Shown here: positions 14,593-27,278 of the stretch, in pieces | How the letters are laid out: the number at the start of each line of letters is the position of its first letter | How positions within the stretch are numbered: position 1 is the first letter of the stretch | From: Clostridia bacterium | GTDB taxonomy: Bacteria > Bacillota_A > Clostridia > Oscillospirales > CAG-272 | Assembly (NCBI GenBank): GCA_017467205.1 | Contig: JAFTSQ010000012.1 | Location: 1-64,000, forward strand | Reading direction: 5' to 3' | DNA: 64,000 nucleotides | Notes under the pieces: model-generated | Seen by the model: the letters and a program-made list of their open reading frames with translations, nothing else | What the model was told of the DNA's origin: nothing | The model's database searches: none | Made by a program: the position numbers and the translations under genes

Positions 14593-16269
14593 TTAGAAGA
14601 GACCGATGATCTTTCCCGACTCGTCGACGTCGATACGCTCGGCGGCGGGGGATTTGGGAAGACCGGGCATTGTGAGTATGTCGCCCGTCTGCACCACTAT
14701 AAAGCCGGCTCCTGCCGCGAGCTTAACGTTTCTTACGGTTATCGAGAAGCCGCTTGGTGCGCCGAGCTTGGTAGGGTCGTCGGAGAAGCTGTACTGCGTT
14801 TTCGCCATACAGATAGGAAGATTTCCGTAGCCGAGGGCGACTATCGTGTCTATCTGCTTCTTTGCCGCAGGGGTAATAATAACGCCACTGCCGCCGTAGA
14901 CCCTTTCGGTGATGCTCTTTATCTTGTCTTCAACGGTTGCGTCGAGCTCGTAGGAGAAGGTGAAGTGCGGCTTATCCTCCTCGCAAAGACGGACGACCTC
15001 GCGCGCGAGCTCAATACCGCCGGCACCGCCCTTTGCCCATACATCAGAGAGGACGACGTTAACGCCGAGCTTTTTGCACTCGCCGATAATACTGTCAACC
15101 TCGGCGTCGGTATCCGTGGGGAATCTGTTGACCGCAACGACGCAGGGAAGACCGAAGGTGTTTTTAATATTGGAAACGTGGCGAAGAAGGTTGGGAATAC
15201 CCTTGCCGAGCGCCTCGAGGTTTTCCTCACCGAGCGCGGTTTTGGGAACGCCGCCGTGCATCTTTAGCGCGCGGATAGTTGCAACCACAACAACTGCCGA
15301 GGGGGTAAGACCTGCCATGCGGCACTTGATATCAAGGAACTTTTCAGCACCGAGGTCAGCGCCGAAGCCTGCCTCGGTTATGGTGTAGTCACCCATCTTG
15401 AGCGCGAGCTTGGTTGCAATTACAGAGTTGCAGCCGTGAGTGATATTCGCGAACGGTCCGCCGTGAACGAAGGCGGGCGTGCCCTCAAGAGTCTGAACGA
15501 GGTTGGGCTTCAGCGCGTCCTTAAGAAGCGCGGTCATAGCGCCTGCCGCCTTGAGATCGCCTGCGGTTACGGGGCGGTCGTCGTAGGTGTAGCCGACTAT
15601 GATGTTCGAGAGTCTTTCCTTGAGGTCGGCTATCGAATTTGCGAGGCAGAGAATAGCCATAACCTCGCTTGCGACGGTGATGTCAAAGCCGTCCTCGCGC
15701 GGAACACCGTTTGCCTTGCCGCCAAGTCCGTCAACGACGAAGCGGAGCTGACGGTCGTTCATATCAACGCATCTTTTCCAGGTTATCTTACGAACGTCTA
15801 TACCGAGGGAGTTGCCCTGCTGGATATGGTTGTCGAGCATTGCGGCGAGCAGGTTGTTTGCCGCGCCTATTGCGTGGAAGTCACCTGTGAAATGAAGGTT
15901 AATGTCCTCCATCGGCACGACCTGCGCATATCCGCCGCCTGCCGCACCGCCCTTAACTCCGAAGACCGGGCCGAGCGAGGGCTCGCGGAGGGCTACGACG
16001 GTGTCCTTGCCTATCCGCCTAAGACCGTCGGCAAGACCGATAGTAGTCGTGGTCTTGCCCTCTCCTGCGGGAGTGGGGGTTATTGCCGTGACGAGAACGA
16101 GCTTTCCGTCCTCTCTCTTCGTTTCTGAAAGGAGTGAAAGGTCTATCTTCGCTTTGTATTTGCCGTACTGCTCGACGAACGCATCGTCAACGTGAGCTGT
16201 CTTGGCAATCTCGCCTATCGGCTTCATATTACAGCTTTGCGCAATTTCTATATCCGATTTGTATCCCAT
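14593..16269 (-). CDS. fhs: Formate-tetrahydrofolate ligase
   Basis: 558 residues, the standard length, from an ATG preceded by AGGAAAGGAAAACAGGAAA. The enzyme joins formate to tetrahydrofolate using ATP, giving 10-formyl-THF in the cytosol. The ATP-binding loop [13 protein letters not shown] lies at about 67-79; [25 protein letters not shown] and FTGDFHAI blocks follow, typical of the family. It lies 224 nt downstream of purL on the same strand. 10-formyl-THF is the formyl donor for PurN and PurH, so the link to the purine operon is functional. A repeat element sits in the gap, and whether fhs has its own promoter is unclear. Confidence 0.97.
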
Positions 16270-16493: not shown

Positions 16494-19400
16494 TTACTTG
16501 AAGTAGCGGACTGCCGCCTCAAACATTCTTATGTTATAGTTACCCTCGACGTTCTTGTAAAGACCGTCGCCAATACGCTCGCTGTGACCCATCTTACCAA
16601 AGACGCGACCGTCGGGCGAGGTAATGCCCTCAATTGCGTACATCGAGTCGTTGGGGTTGTGGTGGATATCCGCGGTTGCGTTGCCGTCAAGGTCGACGTA
16701 CTGCGTTGCAATCTGACCGTTTGCCGCGAGCTGTCTTATAAGCTCCTCGGATGCGAGGAAGCGGCCCTCGCCGTGAGAAATAGGAACGTTGTAAACGTCG
16801 CCAACCTCGGTAAGAGCAAGCCACGGGGACTTGTTAGATGCGACACGGGTACGCACTATTCTCGATTGGTGGCGCGCTATCGTGTTGAAGGTGAGGGTGG
16901 GGCAGCTCTCGTCGGTATCTATAATTTTACCGTAGGGAACGAGGCCGAGCTTGATAAGAGCCTGGAAGCCGTTGCATATACCGCACATAAGTCCGTCGCG
17001 CATCTCAAGAAGCTCGCTGACGCCGTCCTTTACCGCAGCGTTGCGGAAGAAGGCGGTGATGAACTTACCGCTTCCGTCGGGCTCGTCGCCGCCGGAGAAG
17101 CCGCCGGGAATGAATACCATCTGAGCTTCCTTAAGGCGCTTTGCAAAGTAGTCAACGCTCTCGGAAATGCCCTTAGCGGAAAGGTTGTTGATAACTATTA
17201 TCTCGGGGTCTGCACCCGCATCGGCAACCGCCTTTGCGCTGTCGTACTCGCAGTTAGTACCGGGGAATGCGGGAATGAGAATTCTGGGCTTTGCAACCTT
17301 GATAGCGGGAGCTTTGCGCTCGCTCGCCTTGTAGGAGAAGGTTTCCATTCTTCCGTCGCCCTGCTTGATGTTGCAGCTGTAAACGCTCTCAAGCTTTCCC
17401 TCGTAGTCCGAAAGCAGCTCGGAAAGCGAGAGCTCCTCGCCGCGATAGGAGATAACCTCACGGGCGGTCGCGCGACCGAGGTATATAGCGCCCTCGGGAG
17501 CTTCCTTTGCCTCAACGATGAAGGATGCATAGCTATAACCGAAGATATCCTCAAGCGAAAGAGAGTCCGAGAAGGTGAAGCCGAAGCCGTTACCGAAGCA
17601 CATCTTCATAACCGCCTCTGCTATGCCGCCGATGCCGGGCGTGTAGCAGGAAACGGCCTTTTTAGTAGAGAGAAGCTCGTGTACGCGAGCAAACAGAGCC
17701 ACAGCCGACTCCGCGGTGGGAAGACCGTCCTCACCGTGCTCCGACTTGAGAAGGTAGAGGTTATTTTCGCCCTTTATCTCGCCTGAAACGATATCCTTCG
17801 TCTTTGCGGTGGTAACCGCGAAGGAAACGAGGGTGGGCGGAACGTCGAGGTCCTCAAAGCTTCCACTCATAGAGTCCTTGCCGCCGATAGAGCCTATGCC
17901 GAGCTGCTTTTGCGCGCGGTGCGCACCGAGAAGCGCCGCAAGGGGAAGACCCCATCTCTTTGCATTCTTGCCGAGGCGGGGGAAGTATTCCTGGAAGGTG
18001 AGGTAGGTTTCGTCAAAGGACGCACCGCTCGCTATCAGCTTGCAGACCGATTCGAGCACGGCAAGATATGCGCTGTGGTAGGGGCTCTTTTCGGCTATGA
18101 AGGGGTTGTAGCCCCATGCCATAAGCGAGCAATCGTCGGTGTGCTTTTTCTCGACCGATATCTTCTGTACCATAGCCTGAGCAGGTGTGAGCTGGTGCTT
18201 TCCGCCGAAGGGCATTATAACAGTGCCCGCGCCTATGGTGGAGTCGAATCTCTCGGAAAGTCCGCGCTTTGAGCAGACGTTAAGGTCGCTTGCCGTCTTC
18301 TTATAGTTTTCGCTGAAGCTGCCCGAAATAGTCTTGTTATAGGGCTTCGGAGCTTCGATTTCTATATCAATATGCTTGGGTGCGCCGTTGGAGTTCAAGA
18401 ATTCGCGGCTGATGTCGACGATTTTCTTGCCGTTCCAATTCATAACGAGGCGCGCCTCTTCGGTCACCTCTGCAACGGCGGTGGCACGGAGGTTTTCCTT
18501 GTATGCAAGGGCGAGGAATGCGTCGACGTTCTCGCGCTCGATAACAACTGCCATTCTCTCCTGCGACTCGCTTATCGCAAGCTCCGTTCCGTCAAGGCCC
18601 TCGTACTTCTTGGGCACTGCGTTGAGGTCTATCGTAAGACCGTCCGCAAGCTCGCCGATAGCGACCGAAACGCCGCCTGCACCGAAGTCGTTGCATCTCT
18701 TTATCATTCTGCTCGCCTCGGGGTTGCGGAAGAGCCTTTGGAGCTTTCTTTCCTCGGGGGCGTTGCCCTTTTGCACCTCTGCGCCGCAGCTTTCAAGCGA
18801 CTTTACGGTGTGCGACTTTGATGAGCCGGTAGCACCGCCGCAGCCGTCACGGCCGGTAGCGCCGCCGAGAAGGATTACCACGTCGCCGGCTACGGGGCGC
18901 TCGCGGCGGACGTTTCTTTCGGGAGCAGCCGCGATAACCGCGCCTATCTCCATTCGCTTTGCCGCGTATCCGTCGTGATAGAGCTCGTCTACGATACCTG
19001 TCGCAAGACCTATCTGGTTACCGTAGGAGGAATATCCTGCCGCCGCGGTGGTGACTATCTTTCTCTGGGGAAGCTTGCCGGGTATGGTTTCGCTGACCGG
19101 CTTCAAGGGGTCAGCCGCACCCGTAACGCGCATTGCGCCGTATACGTAGGAGCGACCCGAAAGCGGGTCACGGATAGCTCCGCCAATGCAGGTAGCCGCG
19201 CCGCCGAAGGGCTCAATCTCGGTCGGGTGGTTATGCGTTTCGTTCTTGAAAAGGAGAAGCCAGGGCTCGCTGACGCCGTCTACCTCAACGTCGATTTTGA
19301 CGGTGCAGGCGTTTATCTCCTCGGACTCGTCGAGTCTGTCGAGCTTGCCGTGCGCTTTAAGGTATTTTACCGCAACCGTCGCAACGTCCATAAGGCAGAT

Positions 19401-20182
19401 AGGCTTGGTTCTCTCTATATCGTGGCGGGTTTCGAGGTAGTCGTTATACGCCGCCTCAAGAAGCGGGTCGGCGAACTTGACCGAGTCAATCTCGGTCTGG
19501 AAGGTGGTGTGACGGCAGTGGTCGGACCAGTAGGTGTCTATCATTCTGATTTCGGTGATGGTGGGGTCGCGCTCTTCGGTGCGGAAGTACGCCTGGCAAA
19601 AGGCAATATCGTCAGCATCCATTGCAAGACCGTAGTCCGAAACGAACTGTTCAAGACCTGCTCTGTCAAGACCGATAAATCCGTCAAGCACCTTTACCTC
19701 GGTGGGTACGGTGTAGTCGAGCGCGAGAGTTTCGGGCAGCTCAAGTGCCGCCTCTCTTGCTTCGACGGGGTTGATAACGTGCTTTTTGATAGCGGCGATA
19801 TCAGCCTCCGTGAGCGCACCGTAGAGAACGTAGACCTTTGCGGTCCTAACGGTGGGTCTGTCGCCCTTGGAGATTATCTGAATGCACTGTGCCGCGCTGT
19901 CTGCCCGCTGGTCAAACTGACCGGGCAGGAATTCAACGGCGAAGACCGCCGCCGCACCCTCGCATTCGAGGGTCTTTGAGGTGAGGTCGAGCTGGGGCTC
20001 GGAGAACACCGTCTTTTCTGCGTATTCAAACAGCTCCTCGCTGATGTTCTCGGCATCGTAGCGATTTATAACGCGAACGTCTTCGAGAGCGCTTATTCCG
20101 AGAAGCGAGCGAGCGTCCGAAAGAAGAGCCTTTGCTTCGTTTGCAAGCTCCTTTTTCTTCTCAACAAAAATTCTGTATACCA

Positions 20183-20183
<1 letters not shown>
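16494..20183 (-). CDS. purL: Phosphoribosylformylglycinamidine synthase, single-chain
   Basis: 1229 residues, the long form that fuses the synthetase and glutaminase halves and needs no PurS or PurQ. It converts FGAR, ATP and glutamine to FGAM. The synthetase part contains DTYWSDHCRHTTF (about 218-230) and NETHNHPTEIEPFGGAATC, the nucleotide and substrate motifs. The C-terminal class I glutaminase starts near RILIPAFPGTNCEYDS; its nucleophile is in MCGICNGFQ (Cys near 1070) with His and Glu in SHGEGRF (His near 1137). The sequence belongs to the Clostridial clade of PurL. Its ATG overlaps the purD stop by one base, so it is translationally coupled. Confidence 0.96.
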
Positions 20184-21460
<1,277 letters not shown>

Positions 21461-21478: not shown

Positions 21479-22663
21479 TTAGTGGTGGAACAGGCGCATT
21501 CCTGTGAACGCCATTACCATTCCGTACTTGTCTGCGCACTTGATAACTATATCGTCGCGCACCGAGCCGCCGGGCTCTGCTATGTACTTAACGCCGCTTC
21601 TCTTCGCGCGCTCAATATTGGCGTCGAAGGGGAAGAATGCATCGGATGCGAGGGCAACGCCGTCAATCTTCGAAAGATACTCGCGCGCATCCTCGGCGGT
21701 AAGCGGCTCGGGGCGGGTGGTGAAATACTTCTGCCAATTGCCCTCGGCGCAAACGTCCTCTTCATTCTTGTTTATATAGCCGTCGATAACGTTATCGCGG
21801 TCGGGTCTTGCAATTCCGTCCTTGAAGGGAAGGGCGAGCACCTTCGGGTGTCTGCGCAAGAACCAGGTGTCAGCCTTCGTGCCTGCAAGGCGGGTGCAGT
21901 GAATTCTCGACTGCTGACCTGCGCCAACGCCGATAGCCTGTCCGTCGGTCGCGTAGCAGACCGAGTTTGACTGGGTGTACTTAAGGGTGATAAGCGCGAT
22001 AACGAGGTCTCTTGCAGCCTCTTCGGTGAGCGCCTTATTTTCGGTAACGATGTTATCGAAGAGCGATGCGTCTATCTTATAATCGTTTCTGCCCTGCTCG
22101 AAGCTGATACCGTAGACCTGCTTGGTTTCGATGGGAGCGGGGGTGTAGGTGGGGTCAATCTTTACGATATTGTAGTTGCCCTTTTTCTTGGTCTTGAGTA
22201 TCTCAAGCGCCTCGGGGGTGTAGCCGGGAGCTATAATACCGTCGGAAATCTCGCGCTTGATGAGCGTTGCGGTAACCACGTCGCACTCGTCGGAGAGTGC
22301 TATCCAGTCGCCAAAGGAGCTCATTCTGTCAGTGCCGCGCGCTCTTGCGTAGGCGCAGGCGAGGGGGGATGAGTCAAGCTCCTTGATGTCGTCGACGAAG
22401 CAGGCGCGCTTAAGGTCGTCGGGAAGCTTGATTCCAACTGCCGCCGAGGTGGGACTGACGTGCTTGAAGGAGGTCGCCGAGGGGAGTCCCGTCGCTTCCT
22501 TCAATTCCTTAACGAGCTGCCAGGCGTTGAATGCGTCAAGGAAATTTATGTATCCGGGTCTGCCCGAGAGAATTTCAATGGGGAGCTCCGAGCCGTCCTG
22601 CATATAGATGCGGGAGGGCTTTTGGTTGGGGTTACAACCGTATTTAAGTTCAAATTCTTTCAT
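21479..22663 (-). CDS. purH: Freestanding AICAR transformylase (PurH C-terminal activity only)
   Basis: 394 residues from the ATG at 22663 (AAGGGAACGCT upstream); the ATG at 22681 overlaps the upstream gene and is less likely. The protein matches the AICAR transformylase half of bifunctional PurH: LKYGCNPNQKPSRIY, SFKHVSPTSAAVG, GVGAGQQSRIHC and SDAFFPFDANIERA carry the folate and AICAR site (the KHVSP and SDAFFPF motifs are diagnostic). The N-terminal IMP cyclohydrolase domain (MGS-like) is absent. That step is supplied by the PurO-type protein encoded immediately upstream. It uses 10-formyl-THF, made by Fhs. Confidence 0.95.
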   Translation of the reverse strand: MKEFELKYGCNPNQKPSRIYMQDGSELPIEILSGRPGYINFLDAFNAWQLVKELKEATGLPSATSFKHVSPTSAAVGIKLPDDLKRACFVDDIKELDSSPLACAYARARGTDRMSSFGDWIALSDECDVVTATLIKREISDGIIAPGYTPEALEILKTKKKGNYNIVKIDPTYTPAPIETKQVYGISFEQGRNDYKIDASLFDNIVTENKALTEEAARDLVIALITLKYTQSNSVCYATDGQAIGVGAGQQSRIHCTRLAGTKADTWFLRRHPKVLALPFKDGIARPDRDNVIDGYINKNEEDVCAEGNWQKYFTTRPEPLTAEDAREYLSKIDGVALASDAFFPFDANIERAKRSGVKYIAEPGGSVRDDIVIKCADKYGMVMAFTGMRLFHH

Positions 22664-22677
22664 AGCGTTCCCTTTCT

Positions 22678-23397
22678 TCACTTGTTTTTGTTTATAAGTC
22701 TTGTTTCACTCTTTCCACTCTCGAGGTCGACGAAACAAACGTAGAGGGATATCTTGTTTTCTTCGTTGAGGTTCTGCCAGATGCAATTCGTAAGTGCGTC
22801 AATATCCGAGGGAATCTTAACTCTCTCGGGCTCACCGGTGAAGGTGGGGAGGGGATTGCCGTCGGTCATATAGGTGTGAATAAAGTGGCCAAGACCTGCG
22901 GTCGCGGTGTACTCGTAGAAATAGCGGTTGCAGCCCAAGCCCTCGGGGTCGGAGCTCTTGAGAATGCTCATTTCGTACTTAAATCCGCCGTCCGAGAGGT
23001 CGAGAAGTCCGCTGATACGGGGGGTGAGGTTCGGAGCGTCGGGCTCAAACTCGCGGGTGCGAAGAGCCGCTCTCATATCTTCGCCACGCAGGAGCGCGTC
23101 GTATACCGTGTCGGTCTGGTCGCCGTTGGTAACCACTATCTTGTCGCCGGCTCTCTTAACTGCTGAATAAATGATAAGAGAGGGGTCGGAAACCTTGGAA
23201 AAATCGTAGGGCTCGGTGTATATCGCGCCGTCCTTTTCGACGAAAACGCGGTTGCGAGAGTTCTCGCTTCTGCCCATAATGAAGTATGCGAACGCGGCGC
23301 ACTTTGCGTCGGCAGTCTTGCCGATAATTATACCGCGGCCGGGATAGGCGTTGTTTTTGAGAAGCTCGCCTATGAGCTCGGTTTCATAAACGTTCAT
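22678..23397 (-). CDS. purO: IMP cyclohydrolase, archaeal PurO type
   Basis: 239 residues. The sequence matches the IMP_cyclohyd family first defined in archaea as PurO: YPGRGIIIGKT near the N-terminus, IMGRSENSRNRVF (about 41-53), VVTNGDQTDTVYDAL (about 88-102) and TPRISGLLD. PurO closes the ring of FAICAR to IMP, the last step of the pathway, and is unrelated in fold to the cyclohydrolase domain of bacterial PurH. Its position directly upstream of a transformylase that lacks a cyclohydrolase domain supports the assignment. Confidence 0.93.
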   Translation of the reverse strand: MNVYETELIGELLKNNAYPGRGIIIGKTADAKCAAFAYFIMGRSENSRNRVFVEKDGAIYTEPYDFSKVSDPSLIIYSAVKRAGDKIVVTNGDQTDTVYDALLRGEDMRAALRTREFEPDAPNLTPRISGLLDLSDGGFKYEMSILKSSDPEGLGCNRYFYEYTATAGLGHFIHTYMTDGNPLPTFTGEPERVKIPSDIDALTNCIWQNLNEENKISLYVCFVDLESGKSETRLINKNK

Positions 23398-23419: not shown

Positions 23420-24031
23420 TTATTCAGCGCCGACTATCTCGGCACACACCTTTTCGCAGGCGAGAGGGAGTATCTTCCACTCCGCCTCCTCCATAACTCT
23501 TCTTTGCAGAGATTCGGGGGTATCGCCGTCCTTGATTTCAACCGCGCGCTGCATTATTATTCTGCCGCCGTCGGGTATCTCGTTGACGAAATGAACGGTA
23601 GCTCCCGTGACCTTAACTCCGTACGAGAGCGCCGCCTCGTGCACGCGCAGACCGTAAAAGCCCTTGCCCGAGAAGGAGGGGATGAGGGAGGGGTGGACGT
23701 TGATTATTCTTTCGGGGTAAGCCGAGGTAAAGCCCTCGCCGAGAATTGACATAAAGCCCGCAAGGACTATGAGGTCTATTTTGTGCTCCGAGAGAAGTGC
23801 CTTTATTCTTCCCTCGAACTCCTCGGCATCGGCACACTCGCGCCGAAGAACGACGGCGGTGGGAATGCCCGCCTCTGACGCTCTGACGAGCGCGTAGGCG
23901 TCCGCCTTATTGGAGATAACTAACTCTATTTTACCGCTTTTTATGATACCGTCGCGCTGTGCGGCGATGAGCGCACCGAGGTTAGTGCCGCCGCCCGAGA
24001 CGAGAACGGCTATTTTAGCAACGCCGCTCAT
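23420..24031 (-). CDS. purN: Phosphoribosylglycinamide formyltransferase 1
   Basis: 203 residues, the usual length. It transfers the formyl group of 10-formyl-THF to GAR. The N-terminus [16 protein letters not shown] is the phosphate-binding loop; the folate site is VHPSLIPSF with the catalytic Asn in IINVHPS, followed by [14 protein letters not shown] (His and Asp). The start overlaps the purM stop by 4 nt, showing translational coupling. Confidence 0.96.
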
Positions 24032-25068
24032 AAAATTATCTTGTCCTCACTCTTGACTATCTCGCCGATAACGTAAGCGTCCTCGCCGTTTGCCGTGAGA
24101 ATGGAAAGAGCTTCGTCAACCGACTCCTTAGGAACTACTATGCTCATTCCGACACCCATATTGAAGGTGTTGAACATATCGCGCTCGGAAATTCCGCCGC
24201 GCTCTGCAAGGAGCTTGAATATCGGGAGAATCTTAACTGCCGATTTGTCTATCTTCGCGCCAAGACCGTCGGGAATGGAGCGCGGGATGTTCTCGTAGAA
24301 GCCGCCGCCCGTAATGTGCGAGATGCCGTGAACCTCTACCTTTTCAAGAAGGGCGAGAACCGACTTTACGTAAATCTTGGTGGGGGTAAGGAGGGTTTCG
24401 CCGATGCTCTTGCCTCCGAGCTCTGCGACGGGGGACTTGATATCCGCGTTTTCAACGTCGAATACCTTTCTTACAAGCGAGAAGCCGTTGGAGTGAACGC
24501 CGCTCGATGCAAGAGCGATAACCACGTCGCCCTCCCTCATTTTCTTGTTGTCTATAATCTTTGCCTTGTCGACGACGCCGGTGCAGTAGCCCGCAAGGTC
24601 GTACTCGTCAACAGGATAAAAGCCGGGCATCTCTGCGGTTTCACCGCCGATGAGCGCCGCGCCGGACTGAACGCAGCCCTCCGCAACACCCTTAACGATG
24701 TCGGCAATTCTTTCGGGAATGTTCTTTCCGCAAGCGATGTAGTCAAGGAAGAAGAGGGGCTTTGCACCCGTGCAGATAACGTCGTTTACGCACATCGCAA
24801 CGCAGTCAATACCAACGGTATCGTGCTTGTCCATAAGGAAGGCGAGCTTAAGCTTCGTTCCAACACCGTCCGTGCCGCTTACGAGAACGGGGCGGCTCAT
24901 ACCGGTAACGTCAAGCTCGAAAAGACCGCCGAAGCCGCCGACGTCGGAGCAAACTCCGCTCGTCATCGTCCTCGCGATATGAGCCTTCATAAGATCTACT
25001 GCCTTGTAGCCTGCGGTAATGTCAACGCCGGCGGCAGCATAGCTGTCGGATTTTGATTTGGTGTTCAT
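24028..25068 (-). CDS. purM: Phosphoribosylformylglycinamidine cyclo-ligase (AIRS)
   Basis: 346 residues. The enzyme cyclises FGAM to AIR with ATP. The family signatures are [16 protein letters not shown] at the N-terminus, [15 protein letters not shown] (about 64-78), [10 protein letters not shown] and [13 protein letters not shown]. It lies between purF and purN and is separated from purF by 56 nt; no promoter or terminator is apparent there. Confidence 0.97.
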
Positions 25069-25124: not shown

Positions 25125-26549
25125 TTATTCTTTTCCGCTCCAGCAGTACGTGCAGAGCTTGCAGGGATCAACGCCTATCGCCTTGACAAGACCCTCAAGC
25201 GTCTGAAATTCAAGAGAGTCGAACTTGAACTGCCGGCATATCGCCTCGCGCATACGCCTTCCGCGCTCGGTGCTCGCGTCGCTGTATTCGTCGAGGTGCT
25301 CAAGTCCCTCCTCGCCCTCAAGGTCGATTATCGTCTTTCTCGTAATGAGCTCCAAGGCGTTCTTCGCGCTTGAGAAATTGAGGTACTTGCAGGGGTACAT
25401 AATCGGCGGGCAGGCAGAGCGCATATGCACTTCCTTTGCGCCGTTGTCGTAGAGGAATTCAACCGTTTCCTGAAGCTGCGTTCCTCTGACTATCGAGTCG
25501 TCAACGAAGAGTAAGCTCTTGTCCTTTATCAGCTCTGTGACGGGTATCTGCTTCATCTTCGCAACTCTGTGCCGCTCTCTCTGGCTTGAGGGCATAAAGC
25601 TTCTCGGCCAGGTGGGCGTGTATTTTATGAACGGGCGGGCAAAGGTTTTGCCGCTCTTGTTCGAGTAGCCGATGGCGTGCGGAGTTCCGGAGTCGGGCAC
25701 GCCGCAGACGTAGTCGACGCTGTCAATAAGCCCCGCCTCCATATCGTGCTCCGCCATAATAGCGCCGTTGCGGTAACGCATTATCTCTACGTTCTCGCCC
25801 TCGTAGGTCGAGTTGGAGTAGCCGTAATACGACCAGAGAAACGCGCAGATTCTCATTTTCTCGCCCGGCTCGGCAAGGGTCGTAATACCGTCAGCCGAAA
25901 GCTCGACTATCTCGCCAGGTCCGAGCTCGCGCTCGGTTTCGTAACCGAGCTTGGTATAGGCAAAGGACTCGAAGGATACGCAGTATCCGTCCTCTGCGCG
26001 ACCTATCGTAATAGGAAGCCTTCCGAGCTTATCCCTTGCGGCTATAAGCCGTCCGTCCTCCTTCAGAACGAGTATAGACGCCGTTCCGTCTATTTCCGAC
26101 TGGGCGAACTTGATTCCCTCAAGGAAGGACTCCTTTTGGTTGATGAGTGATGCAACGAGCTCGACGGAATTTATCCTTCCACCGTTCATTGCGGAGAAGT
26201 GGCCGTTGTGGTCTATGAAGTATTTTTCTATAAGCTCGTCGGCGTTGTTTATCTTGCCGACTATCGTAATAGCGTACCTTCCGAGCCGCGAGCGAATGAG
26301 AAGCGGCTGGGGGTCGGTGTCGCTTATACAGCCTATCGCCGAATTGCCGCTCATTATTTCGAAGATATCGTCAAACTTCGTTCTGAACGGCGAGTTTTCA
26401 ATATTATGTATCTCACGAAGAAGACCGCGCTCGGCGTTGAGCGCTGCCATACCGCCCCTTCGAGTTCCGAGGTGCGAATGGTAGTCCGTTCCGAAGAACA
26501 CGTCGGAGATAATGTCGCGCTTTGCTACCGCGCCAAAGAATCCACCCAT
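25125..26549 (-). CDS. purF: Amidophosphoribosyltransferase homologue lacking the N-terminal Cys nucleophile
   Basis: 474 residues from an ATG preceded by GGAGGTTTTAGC. The C-terminal PRTase domain is intact: [15 protein letters not shown] and the PRPP loop [13 protein letters not shown] (about 346-358). Cys residues in YPCKY and CKLCTYC match the positions of iron-sulfur ligands in Bacillus-type PurF. However, the N-terminus reads [10 protein letters not shown] instead of the family MCGIFG, so the cysteine that hydrolyses glutamine in the Ntn domain is missing, and the HNGN-like motif is also replaced ([10 protein letters not shown]). No alternative start restores a Cys. Relatives with an MGGFFG start occur in Clostridia and Bacteroidetes. 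It may use free ammonia or have another role. Confidence 0.85.
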
Positions 26550-26566: not shown

Positions 26567-27064
26567 TTAAGCCTGCCCGAGTTCTGACGCGAGTGCTGCG
26601 TCCTTCTTGAGAACCGCGAGCGAGTCTGCCTTGCGCTTTGCGTCGAGCTTCTTTTGGAGAGCTTCGTCGGTTATGGCAAGCATCTCGGCGGCAAGAAGAG
26701 CCGCGTTTGCGCCTCCGTTTATTGCGACGGTTGCAACCGGAATGCCTGAGGGCATCTGAACTGTGGAAAGAAGAGCGTCAAGCCCGTCGAGATTTGTCGA
26801 CTTGCAGGGAATTCCGATGACGGGCAACGTCGTGTTAGCCGCGATAGCACCCGCAAGGTGCGCCGCCATTCCCGCCGCTGCTATGATAACGCCGAAGCCG
26901 CACTCTCTTGCCGTGCGGGCAAAGTCGCGCGCCTCGTCCGGCGTTCTGTGCGCCGAATAGATATGCACCTCAAAGGGAATTTCAAGTGCGGCGAGCGTGT
27001 CCGTCGCCTTTCTGATTATGGGAAGGTCGCTGTCGCTTCCCATCACGATTCCGACTTTTTTCAT
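26567..27064 (-). CDS. purE: N5-carboxyaminoimidazole ribonucleotide mutase
   Basis: 165 residues, first gene of the purine operon; AGGAGATAAAA precedes the ATG. Class I PurE rearranges N5-CAIR to CAIR. The motifs VGIVMGSDSDLP (4-15) with its Ser and Asp phosphate loop, YSAHRTPDEA (39-48, catalytic His) and the AAAGMAAHLAGAIAANTTLP stretch with PVIGIPC are diagnostic. No purK is present in this window. Confidence 0.97.
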   Translation of the reverse strand: MKKVGIVMGSDSDLPIIRKATDTLAALEIPFEVHIYSAHRTPDEARDFARTARECGFGVIIAAAGMAAHLAGAIAANTTLPVIGIPCKSTNLDGLDALLSTVQMPSGIPVATVAINGGANAALLAAEMLAITDEALQKKLDAKRKADSLAVLKKDAALASELGQA

Positions 27065-27110: not shown

Positions 27111-27154
27111 AAAAAGGGCGCACTTACTCCTCGGTGAAAAAAGTAAATGTGCCC
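27111..27154 (-). terminator. Riboswitch expression-platform terminator of the purine operon
   Basis: On the minus strand GGGCACATTTACT pairs with AGTAAGTGCGCCC and is followed by TTTTTGATT. The first arm includes the GGGCA end of the ZTP aptamer, so ligand binding and termination are mutually exclusive, the expected ON-switch layout. Confidence 0.85.
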
Positions 27155-27237
27155 AGACGGTCGGCAAAACGGGCACTGCCCGCAACGCTTATCTATCCCT
27201 GTGGTAAGCTCCACTGAACCGTCGGTCAAGAAAGCGG
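27150..27237 (-). promoter_or_regulatory. ZTP (pfl) riboswitch upstream of purE
   Basis: The minus strand shows the two-part ZTP aptamer: a 5' hairpin domain with TGACCGACGG, GTGGAGCTTACCAC and AGGGA closed by CGCTT/AAGCG, then a short linker hairpin (GGGCAGTGCCC) and the conserved 3' element CCGTCTGGGCA. ZTP riboswitches sense ZMP/ZTP, which accumulate when 10-formyl-THF is limiting, and normally turn on purine and folate genes. The location before purE and the overlap with a terminator fit precisely. Assigned from consensus elements, not from a covariance search. Confidence 0.85.
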
Positions 27238-27278
27238 CTGCTCGCAAAAGACTTTGCAGCGTGATTTTTAACGGTAAT

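Follow-up and report, generated by a model that had tools for sequence, protein, structure and literature searches.

A PurF homologue without glutaminase residues in the purF slot of a clostridial purine operon

The locus and its purine genes

The stretch of DNA analysed here, 64 kb of contig JAFTSQ010000012.1 from a Clostridia bacterium and referred to below as the window, carries a purine operon in which the purF slot is occupied by a homologue that has lost the residues for glutamine hydrolysis. We use the label PurF* for this protein and its relatives with the same loss. The operon is preceded by a ZMP/ZTP riboswitch, which probably controls it, and runs in the order purE, PurF*, purM, purN, PurO-like inosine monophosphate (IMP) cyclohydrolase, aminoimidazole carboxamide ribonucleotide (AICAR) formyltransferase, purD, purL and fhs. 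Its features are:

25125..26549, reverse strand: PurF* (474 residues), PurF fold with a phosphoribosyl pyrophosphate (PRPP) site and a glutaminase domain that is dead and remodelled, probable phosphoribosylamine synthase (TIGR01134, 176.6 bits, and alignments)
27144..27239, reverse strand: ZMP/ZTP riboswitch upstream of purE (RF01750, 47.1 bits, gathering score 39)
26567..27064, reverse strand: purE, which opens the operon and immediately precedes PurF* (family profile)
24028..25068, reverse strand: purM, directly downstream of PurF* (family profile)
23420..24031, reverse strand: purN (family profile)
22678..23397, reverse strand: IMP cyclohydrolase of the PurO-like Pfam family PF07826 (family profile)
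21479..22681, reverse strand: stand-alone AICAR formyltransferase (NF005492)
20183..21460, reverse strand: purD, encoding the enzyme that consumes phosphoribosylamine (family profile)
16494..20183, reverse strand: purL, whose product carries a class I glutaminase Cys motif of its own, MCGICNG (TIGR01857, 1854 bits)
14593..16269, reverse strand: fhs, formate-tetrahydrofolate ligase (family profile)

The PurF* open reading frame (ORF) starts with ATG, and its product has the N-terminus [10 protein letters not shown]. Since a GGAGG sequence ends 7 nucleotides 5' of this ATG, and purE ends 17 nucleotides upstream of it, a missed upstream start that would supply a Cys is unlikely. The N-terminal MGGFFG moreover aligns to the CGIVG of canonical PurF, and we rejected a start-site artefact.

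Searching the window by tblastn with E. coli and clostridial PurF queries revealed no second PurF; one further match covered 45 residues with an E-value of 0.28. This agrees with an earlier note on this DNA, which had described the gene as the only PurF-like one in the operon. The note had also called the early-pathway operon otherwise complete, which is accurate for the genes listed above, but purC, purB and purK are not among the genes of the operon (only the operon was checked for these three). The PurO-like cyclohydrolase and the stand-alone formyltransferase stand in the window in place of a bifunctional PurH.

Residues lost, retained and gained

To place the window protein among its relatives, 81 distinct PurF* sequences were aligned with E. 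coli K-12 PurF and 32 canonical PurFs. Apart from the window protein, the PurF* sequences came from the 80 nearest loci, the best 80 of at least 585 relatives (canonical PurFs possibly among them) found by a DNA scan of genome contigs; all 80 are PurF* and share 66-77% identity with the window protein. Positions within PurF* are referred to the following features:

25866..26546, reverse strand: former N-terminal nucleophile (Ntn) glutaminase domain, residues 2-228, with Gly2 for Cys1 and the glutamine loop deleted (alignment)
25479..25502, reverse strand: PRPP loop D350-DSIVRGT-357, as in canonical PurF (alignment)
25143..25847, reverse strand: span with the four conserved iron-sulfur (Fe-S) cysteines C235, C387, C466 and C469, and with C380 and C463 (alignment)

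It can be seen from the alignment that in all 81 PurF* proteins, the window protein included, Cys1 is replaced by Gly, the glutamine-binding loop R73-Y74-P75-T76 (E. coli numbering) is deleted, and H100, N101 and D127 are replaced, the D127 position being Ser or Thr in 63 of the 81; G102 is retained. In E. coli PurF the R73 loop, N101 and D127 belong to the glutamine site. The catalytic role of Cys1 is given by Brown et al. (PMC3261824). Because it has no N-terminal nucleophile, PurF* alone should not hydrolyse glutamine. As the loss is common to all 81 sequences, we rejected chance or a single mutation as its origin. The absence of the N-terminal Cys and the alteration of a second glutaminase motif, both noticed earlier in the window sequence, are thus properties of the whole set.

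These losses are reflected in the family assignments. Pfam returns only a weak GATase_7 match (29.5 bits) for the window protein, and its TIGR01134 purF score of 176.6 bits lies below the curated NCBIfam cut-off of 350. TIGR01134 is nevertheless the only family that it matches at E < 1e-20; it has neither the family score nor the synthase domain of the GlmS/AsnB class II amidotransferases, and E. coli GlmS rows align to it over residues 2-248 at most.

The remainder of the protein is strongly retained. The PRPP loop DDSIVRGT of the window protein is identical to the canonical one, and its positions D366-T373 are kept in 80 or 81 of the 81 PurF* proteins. The flexible-loop residues are also kept, and K326, Y258, R332, F334, R342 and K349 are present in every sequence, as is a Cys at each of the Bacillus-type Fe-S positions C235, C387, C466 and C469. 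The intact PRPP loop and the probable Fe-S cysteines reported in the earlier note are therefore confirmed, and a whole-length PurF fold is predicted for PurF*. Two further cysteines were seen in this region: the position of C380, adjoining the Fe-S ligand C387, holds Cys in every PurF* (81 of 81) and Ser or Ala in all 32 canonical rows, and C463 is Cys in 80 of 81 PurF* compared with 18 of 32 canonical rows.

The former glutaminase domain has in addition acquired residues of its own. Conservation was measured over the 61 PurF* sequences below 75% identity, in which 100 positions of the whole protein are near-invariant, 39 of them in residues 1-228; over sequences so divergent, this points to strong purifying selection on PurF*. 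The new near-invariant residues of the domain are D22-YHSHLG-28, I47-H48, I50, F55-R56, F59 and N127, and the motifs DYHSHLG and FRxKF are near-invariant across the set. D22, Y23, H24, S25, H26, H48, R56 and N127 are identical in 61 of 61 rows, and all of these except H26 are insertions or unlike the commonest canonical residue. The canonical counterpart of residues 22-28 in the alignment is the stretch around R26-G27, and further insertions or new invariant motifs relative to canonical PurF lie around residues 50-59, at W314 and at about 401-434. The rebuilt domain clearly illustrates how an enzyme domain can acquire new invariant residues once its catalytic ones are gone.

Distribution of PurF* and PurD

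The co-occurrence of PurF* with PurD was surveyed across 291 genomes, all from the class to which the genome with locus L004 belongs, with canonical PurF defined as a match over the TIGR01134 cut-off. PurF* is found in 89 of these genomes, 40 without and 49 with canonical PurF. PurD scores over its cut-off in 36 of the 40 genomes that have PurF* only, 49 of 49 that have both, 154 of 163 that have canonical PurF only and 8 of 39 that have neither. Its frequency with PurF* only is similar to that with canonical PurF only (p = 0.29) and far higher than in genomes with neither (p = 2e-10), both p-values being optimistic because related genomes are not independent. Since PurD is retained in genomes where PurF* is the only form, PurF* is most likely a phosphoribosylamine-producing enzyme, with free ammonia as its probable nitrogen source.

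The cross-table was compiled by hand with E-value stand-ins for the cut-offs, and gives 212 genomes with canonical PurF (213 by direct count) and 247 with PurD (247 directly). G139 and G228, among the 40 with PurF* only, and G036 and G019, among the 49 with both, contain only a partial PurF*. One genome counted as PurF*-only, G167, has a TIGR01134 match of 4.9e-80, stronger than PurF* gives, and may carry a damaged canonical PurF; with G167 left out, PurD is present in 35 of 39. Among the eight genomes with PurD and neither form, four (G063, G089, G214, G282) have a PurF match below the cut-off and above the GlmS-like background, and the other four (G031, G186, G191, G297) have not even a partial one. 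The TIGR01134 search is a fair detector, with 13 of 14 control genomes over the cut-off. In the 58 genomes searched among those of the 80 nearest loci, canonical PurF was detected in 14 (0 of 8 plus 14 of 50) and none was found in 44.

Beyond these sets, a protein search gave at least 8000 candidates, possibly including canonical PurFs. With a divergent PurF* as query, the matches listed include, at 61-63% identity, Desulfoscipio gibsoniae, Acetivibrio alkalicellulosi (its record is flagged as unverified) and Phosphitispora, and the named PurF* members are annotated as amidophosphoribosyltransferase or purF. A tree made by a quick method from 61 PurF*, 14 PurFs of class members and E. coli PurF, with 30 of its 73 inner branches left open, places PurF* in a single clade with 100% support; the stem of this clade is long, at 5.64 changes per column, which makes its deep placement among canonical PurFs unsure. 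Mapping the labels 'only' (25 rows) and 'both' (24 rows) onto this tree requires 16 changes or more, some of which may reflect gaps in metagenome-assembled genomes (MAGs).

Among the nearest loci, purM directly follows PurF* in 50 of the 66 where a following gene was called. The loci beyond these are mostly more divergent, and there PurF* usually lies outside a purine operon, the next gene (n = 35) being purM in 4 and canonical PurF in 1. The neighbour counts are lower bounds, since PurF* itself went uncalled in 15 of 121 loci, probably owing to long antisense ORFs. Canonical PurF and PurF* are adjacent in five loci (L014, L028, L153, L154, L155). At Rfam gathering scores, no riboswitch was found directly upstream of stand-alone PurF* in seven loci (L150, L153, L156, L157, L158, L160, L165), with three matches elsewhere in these loci.

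Some neighbours recur. The PurO-like cyclohydrolase and the AICAR formyltransferase lie within five genes of PurF* in at least 44 and at least 39 of 106 loci, respectively. A formate/nitrite-type transporter (PF01226, 90.4 bits, from a scan of L041:8787-9395, forward strand, alone) is the second or third gene after PurF* in 9 loci, on the same strand in 9 of 9, and perhaps supplies formate for purine carbons. The carB gene lies beside stand-alone PurF* at L156:5981-9211, L157:13425-16649 and L160:12618-15836, and no gene of carA length was called next to it in these three loci, carA itself not being searched for. It is possible that carB here is a second glutaminase-free nucleotide enzyme, or that its proximity is only shared synteny of the clade. 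An ammonia module of carB and PurF* as a rule was set aside, as carB is within five genes in only 6 of 106 loci and on the same strand in 2 of 6 (3 of 6 were scanned).

Nitrogen donor, alternatives and known systems

Taking together the loss of glutaminase residues, retention of the PRPP and Fe-S residues, predicted fold, operon position and retention of PurD, we consider it probable that PurF* is a working phosphoribosylamine synthase that uses free ammonia and whose glutaminase domain has been rebuilt. PurF* would then be the operon's own enzyme for this step, binding PRPP in the retained phosphoribosyltransferase site and coupling it to free ammonia that enters at the former glutamine-binding place. 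The former glutaminase domain would hydrolyse no glutamine and would have been rebuilt, under strong new constraint, to serve a structural or ligand-binding role. The contents of gut and rumen are rich in ammonia. Free ammonia is the simplest nitrogen donor and probably the one used, given the missing N-terminal nucleophile, the use of ammonia by Cys1 mutants and the lack of a glutaminase among the neighbours identified. Replacement of Cys1 by Ala or Ser is reported to leave E. coli PurF with ammonia-dependent activity (Mei and Zalkin, 1989, cited in PMC3261824), and the yeast phosphoribosyl pyrophosphate amidotransferase (PPAT) is reported to use ambient NH3, with external NH3 proposed to enter through the glutamine site (PMC12017579). 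That PurL of the same operon keeps its Cys motif suggests that glutamine use has not been lost in general. Of the three options raised in the earlier note, an ammonia-dependent enzyme is best supported, by PurD retention and by the E. coli precedent; we infer that PurF* makes phosphoribosylamine in the cell, that ammonia is the direct donor and by which route it enters.

Several points weigh against this reading. Canonical PurF is also present in 49 of the 89 PurF* genomes, PurD is missing from 4 of the 40 with PurF* only, and kinship flatters the PurD statistics. Genome completeness is unstated and the nearest loci are mostly on MAG contigs, so that some genomes will have been wrongly labelled 'only'. 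The gene lies outside a purine operon in most of the more divergent loci, and its role there may differ. Finally, simple ammonia use needs no pocket, and leaves the new invariant residues unexplained.

A second reading is that a separate glutaminase docks on the DYHSHLG/FRxKF surface and feeds a phosphoribosylamine-making PurF*. In its favour, the dead domain with its 39 near-invariant positions is conserved as an interface or ligand site would be. We nevertheless regard it as unlikely. The recurrent neighbours identified by family scan or query match (purC, purE, purM, purN, purO, purV, purD, a carbamoyltransferase, orotidine monophosphate (OMP) decarboxylase, a phosphoribosyltransferase and the formate/nitrite-type transporter) include no glutaminase, several smaller clusters, some probably antisense artefacts, being unscanned. 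The glutaminase family PF04960 occurs in 3 of 36 PurF*-only genomes, class I amidotransferase subunits not having been searched genome-wide, and eight PurF*-only genomes have no other TIGR01134 match, although GlmS was missed there too and they are possibly incomplete. The earlier suggestion of a complex with a separate glutaminase is accordingly disfavoured.

The earlier note had also proposed a regulatory paralogue, with a canonical PurF elsewhere making phosphoribosylamine. The 49 genomes with both forms, to which such a regulatory or moonlighting role may apply, and the five loci with the two genes side by side fit this proposal, and the source organism may carry a canonical PurF beyond the 64 kb searched. 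It does not fit the 40 PurF* genomes without a PurF over the cut-off, 36 of which keep PurD, nor the 44 of 58 nearest-locus genomes in which none was found; the catalytic PRPP residues vary little or not at all, and PurF* is the sole PurF found in the window. We think it improbable. A remodelled pocket that frees ammonia from another donor, as part of a two-site enzyme with different chemistry, or that serves as an effector site, would explain the eight residues invariant in 61 of 61 rows and mostly unlike canonical ones, but seems very doubtful, since PurF* has no N-terminal nucleophile and no neighbouring gene suggests a donor. That PurF* is a decaying pseudo-enzyme, with phosphoribosylamine supplied by other enzymes or spontaneous chemistry, is scarcely credible given its 100 near-invariant positions and the lack of internal stops in the PurF* rows of the class genomes listed, even though PurF-independent phosphoribosylamine formation is reported in Salmonella under some conditions (PMC3485032) and 4 of the 39 genomes with neither form keep PurD without a partial PurF match.

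If PurF* does use ammonia, purine synthesis in many gut and anaerobic Clostridia is coupled directly to ammonium, these organisms would escape glutamine analogues directed at PurF, and metabolic models of their genomes are wrong at the phosphoribosylamine step. In textbooks, PurF is the regulated, glutamine-dependent entry point to purines. The annotation amidophosphoribosyltransferase or purF predicts glutamine use, against which the sequence argues for PurF* acting by itself. Tentatively, a large clade of Clostridia may have switched the nitrogen source of the committed purine step from glutamine to free ammonia, with the domain rebuilt around an invariant DYHSHLG/IHxI/FRxKF site that binds a ligand or partner, perhaps in nitrogen sensing, and with canonical PurF then lost repeatedly.

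PurF* resembles canonical PurF (EC 2.4.2.14, TIGR01134; Bacillus type with an Fe-S cluster, 1ao0 and 1gph) in its fold, PRPP loop, flexible-loop residues, four Fe-S cysteines and slot before purM, and differs in lacking Cys1, the glutamine loop, N101 and D127, in its identity of 24-32% and in falling below the TIGR01134 cut-off. Among the papers listed, which covered few subscription journals, we found no report of a bacterial Cys-less PurF, only the paper on archaeal PurF'. A family with both glutamine-using and free-ammonia forms, as we propose for PurF, is known from the single-domain nicotinamide adenine dinucleotide (NAD) synthetase described in PMC3376133; the ammonia-using form of that different enzyme family has no glutaminase domain, whereas PurF* has kept, disabled and rebuilt it. 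A precedent, by description, is crenarchaeal PurF' (Brown et al., 2011, PMC3261824), which lacks the N-terminal Cys, lies near purine genes and was proposed to be an ammonia-dependent enzyme, a role that is also a hypothesis there. Many PurF' proteins have Ala or Val for the Cys, whereas PurF* has Gly, and each crenarchaeon studied with PurF' also has a true PurF, in contrast to the 40 of 89 PurF* genomes without one over the cut-off. Relative to PurF', PurF* is bacterial, has lost the glutamine loop as well, and is the sole PurF found in many genomes.
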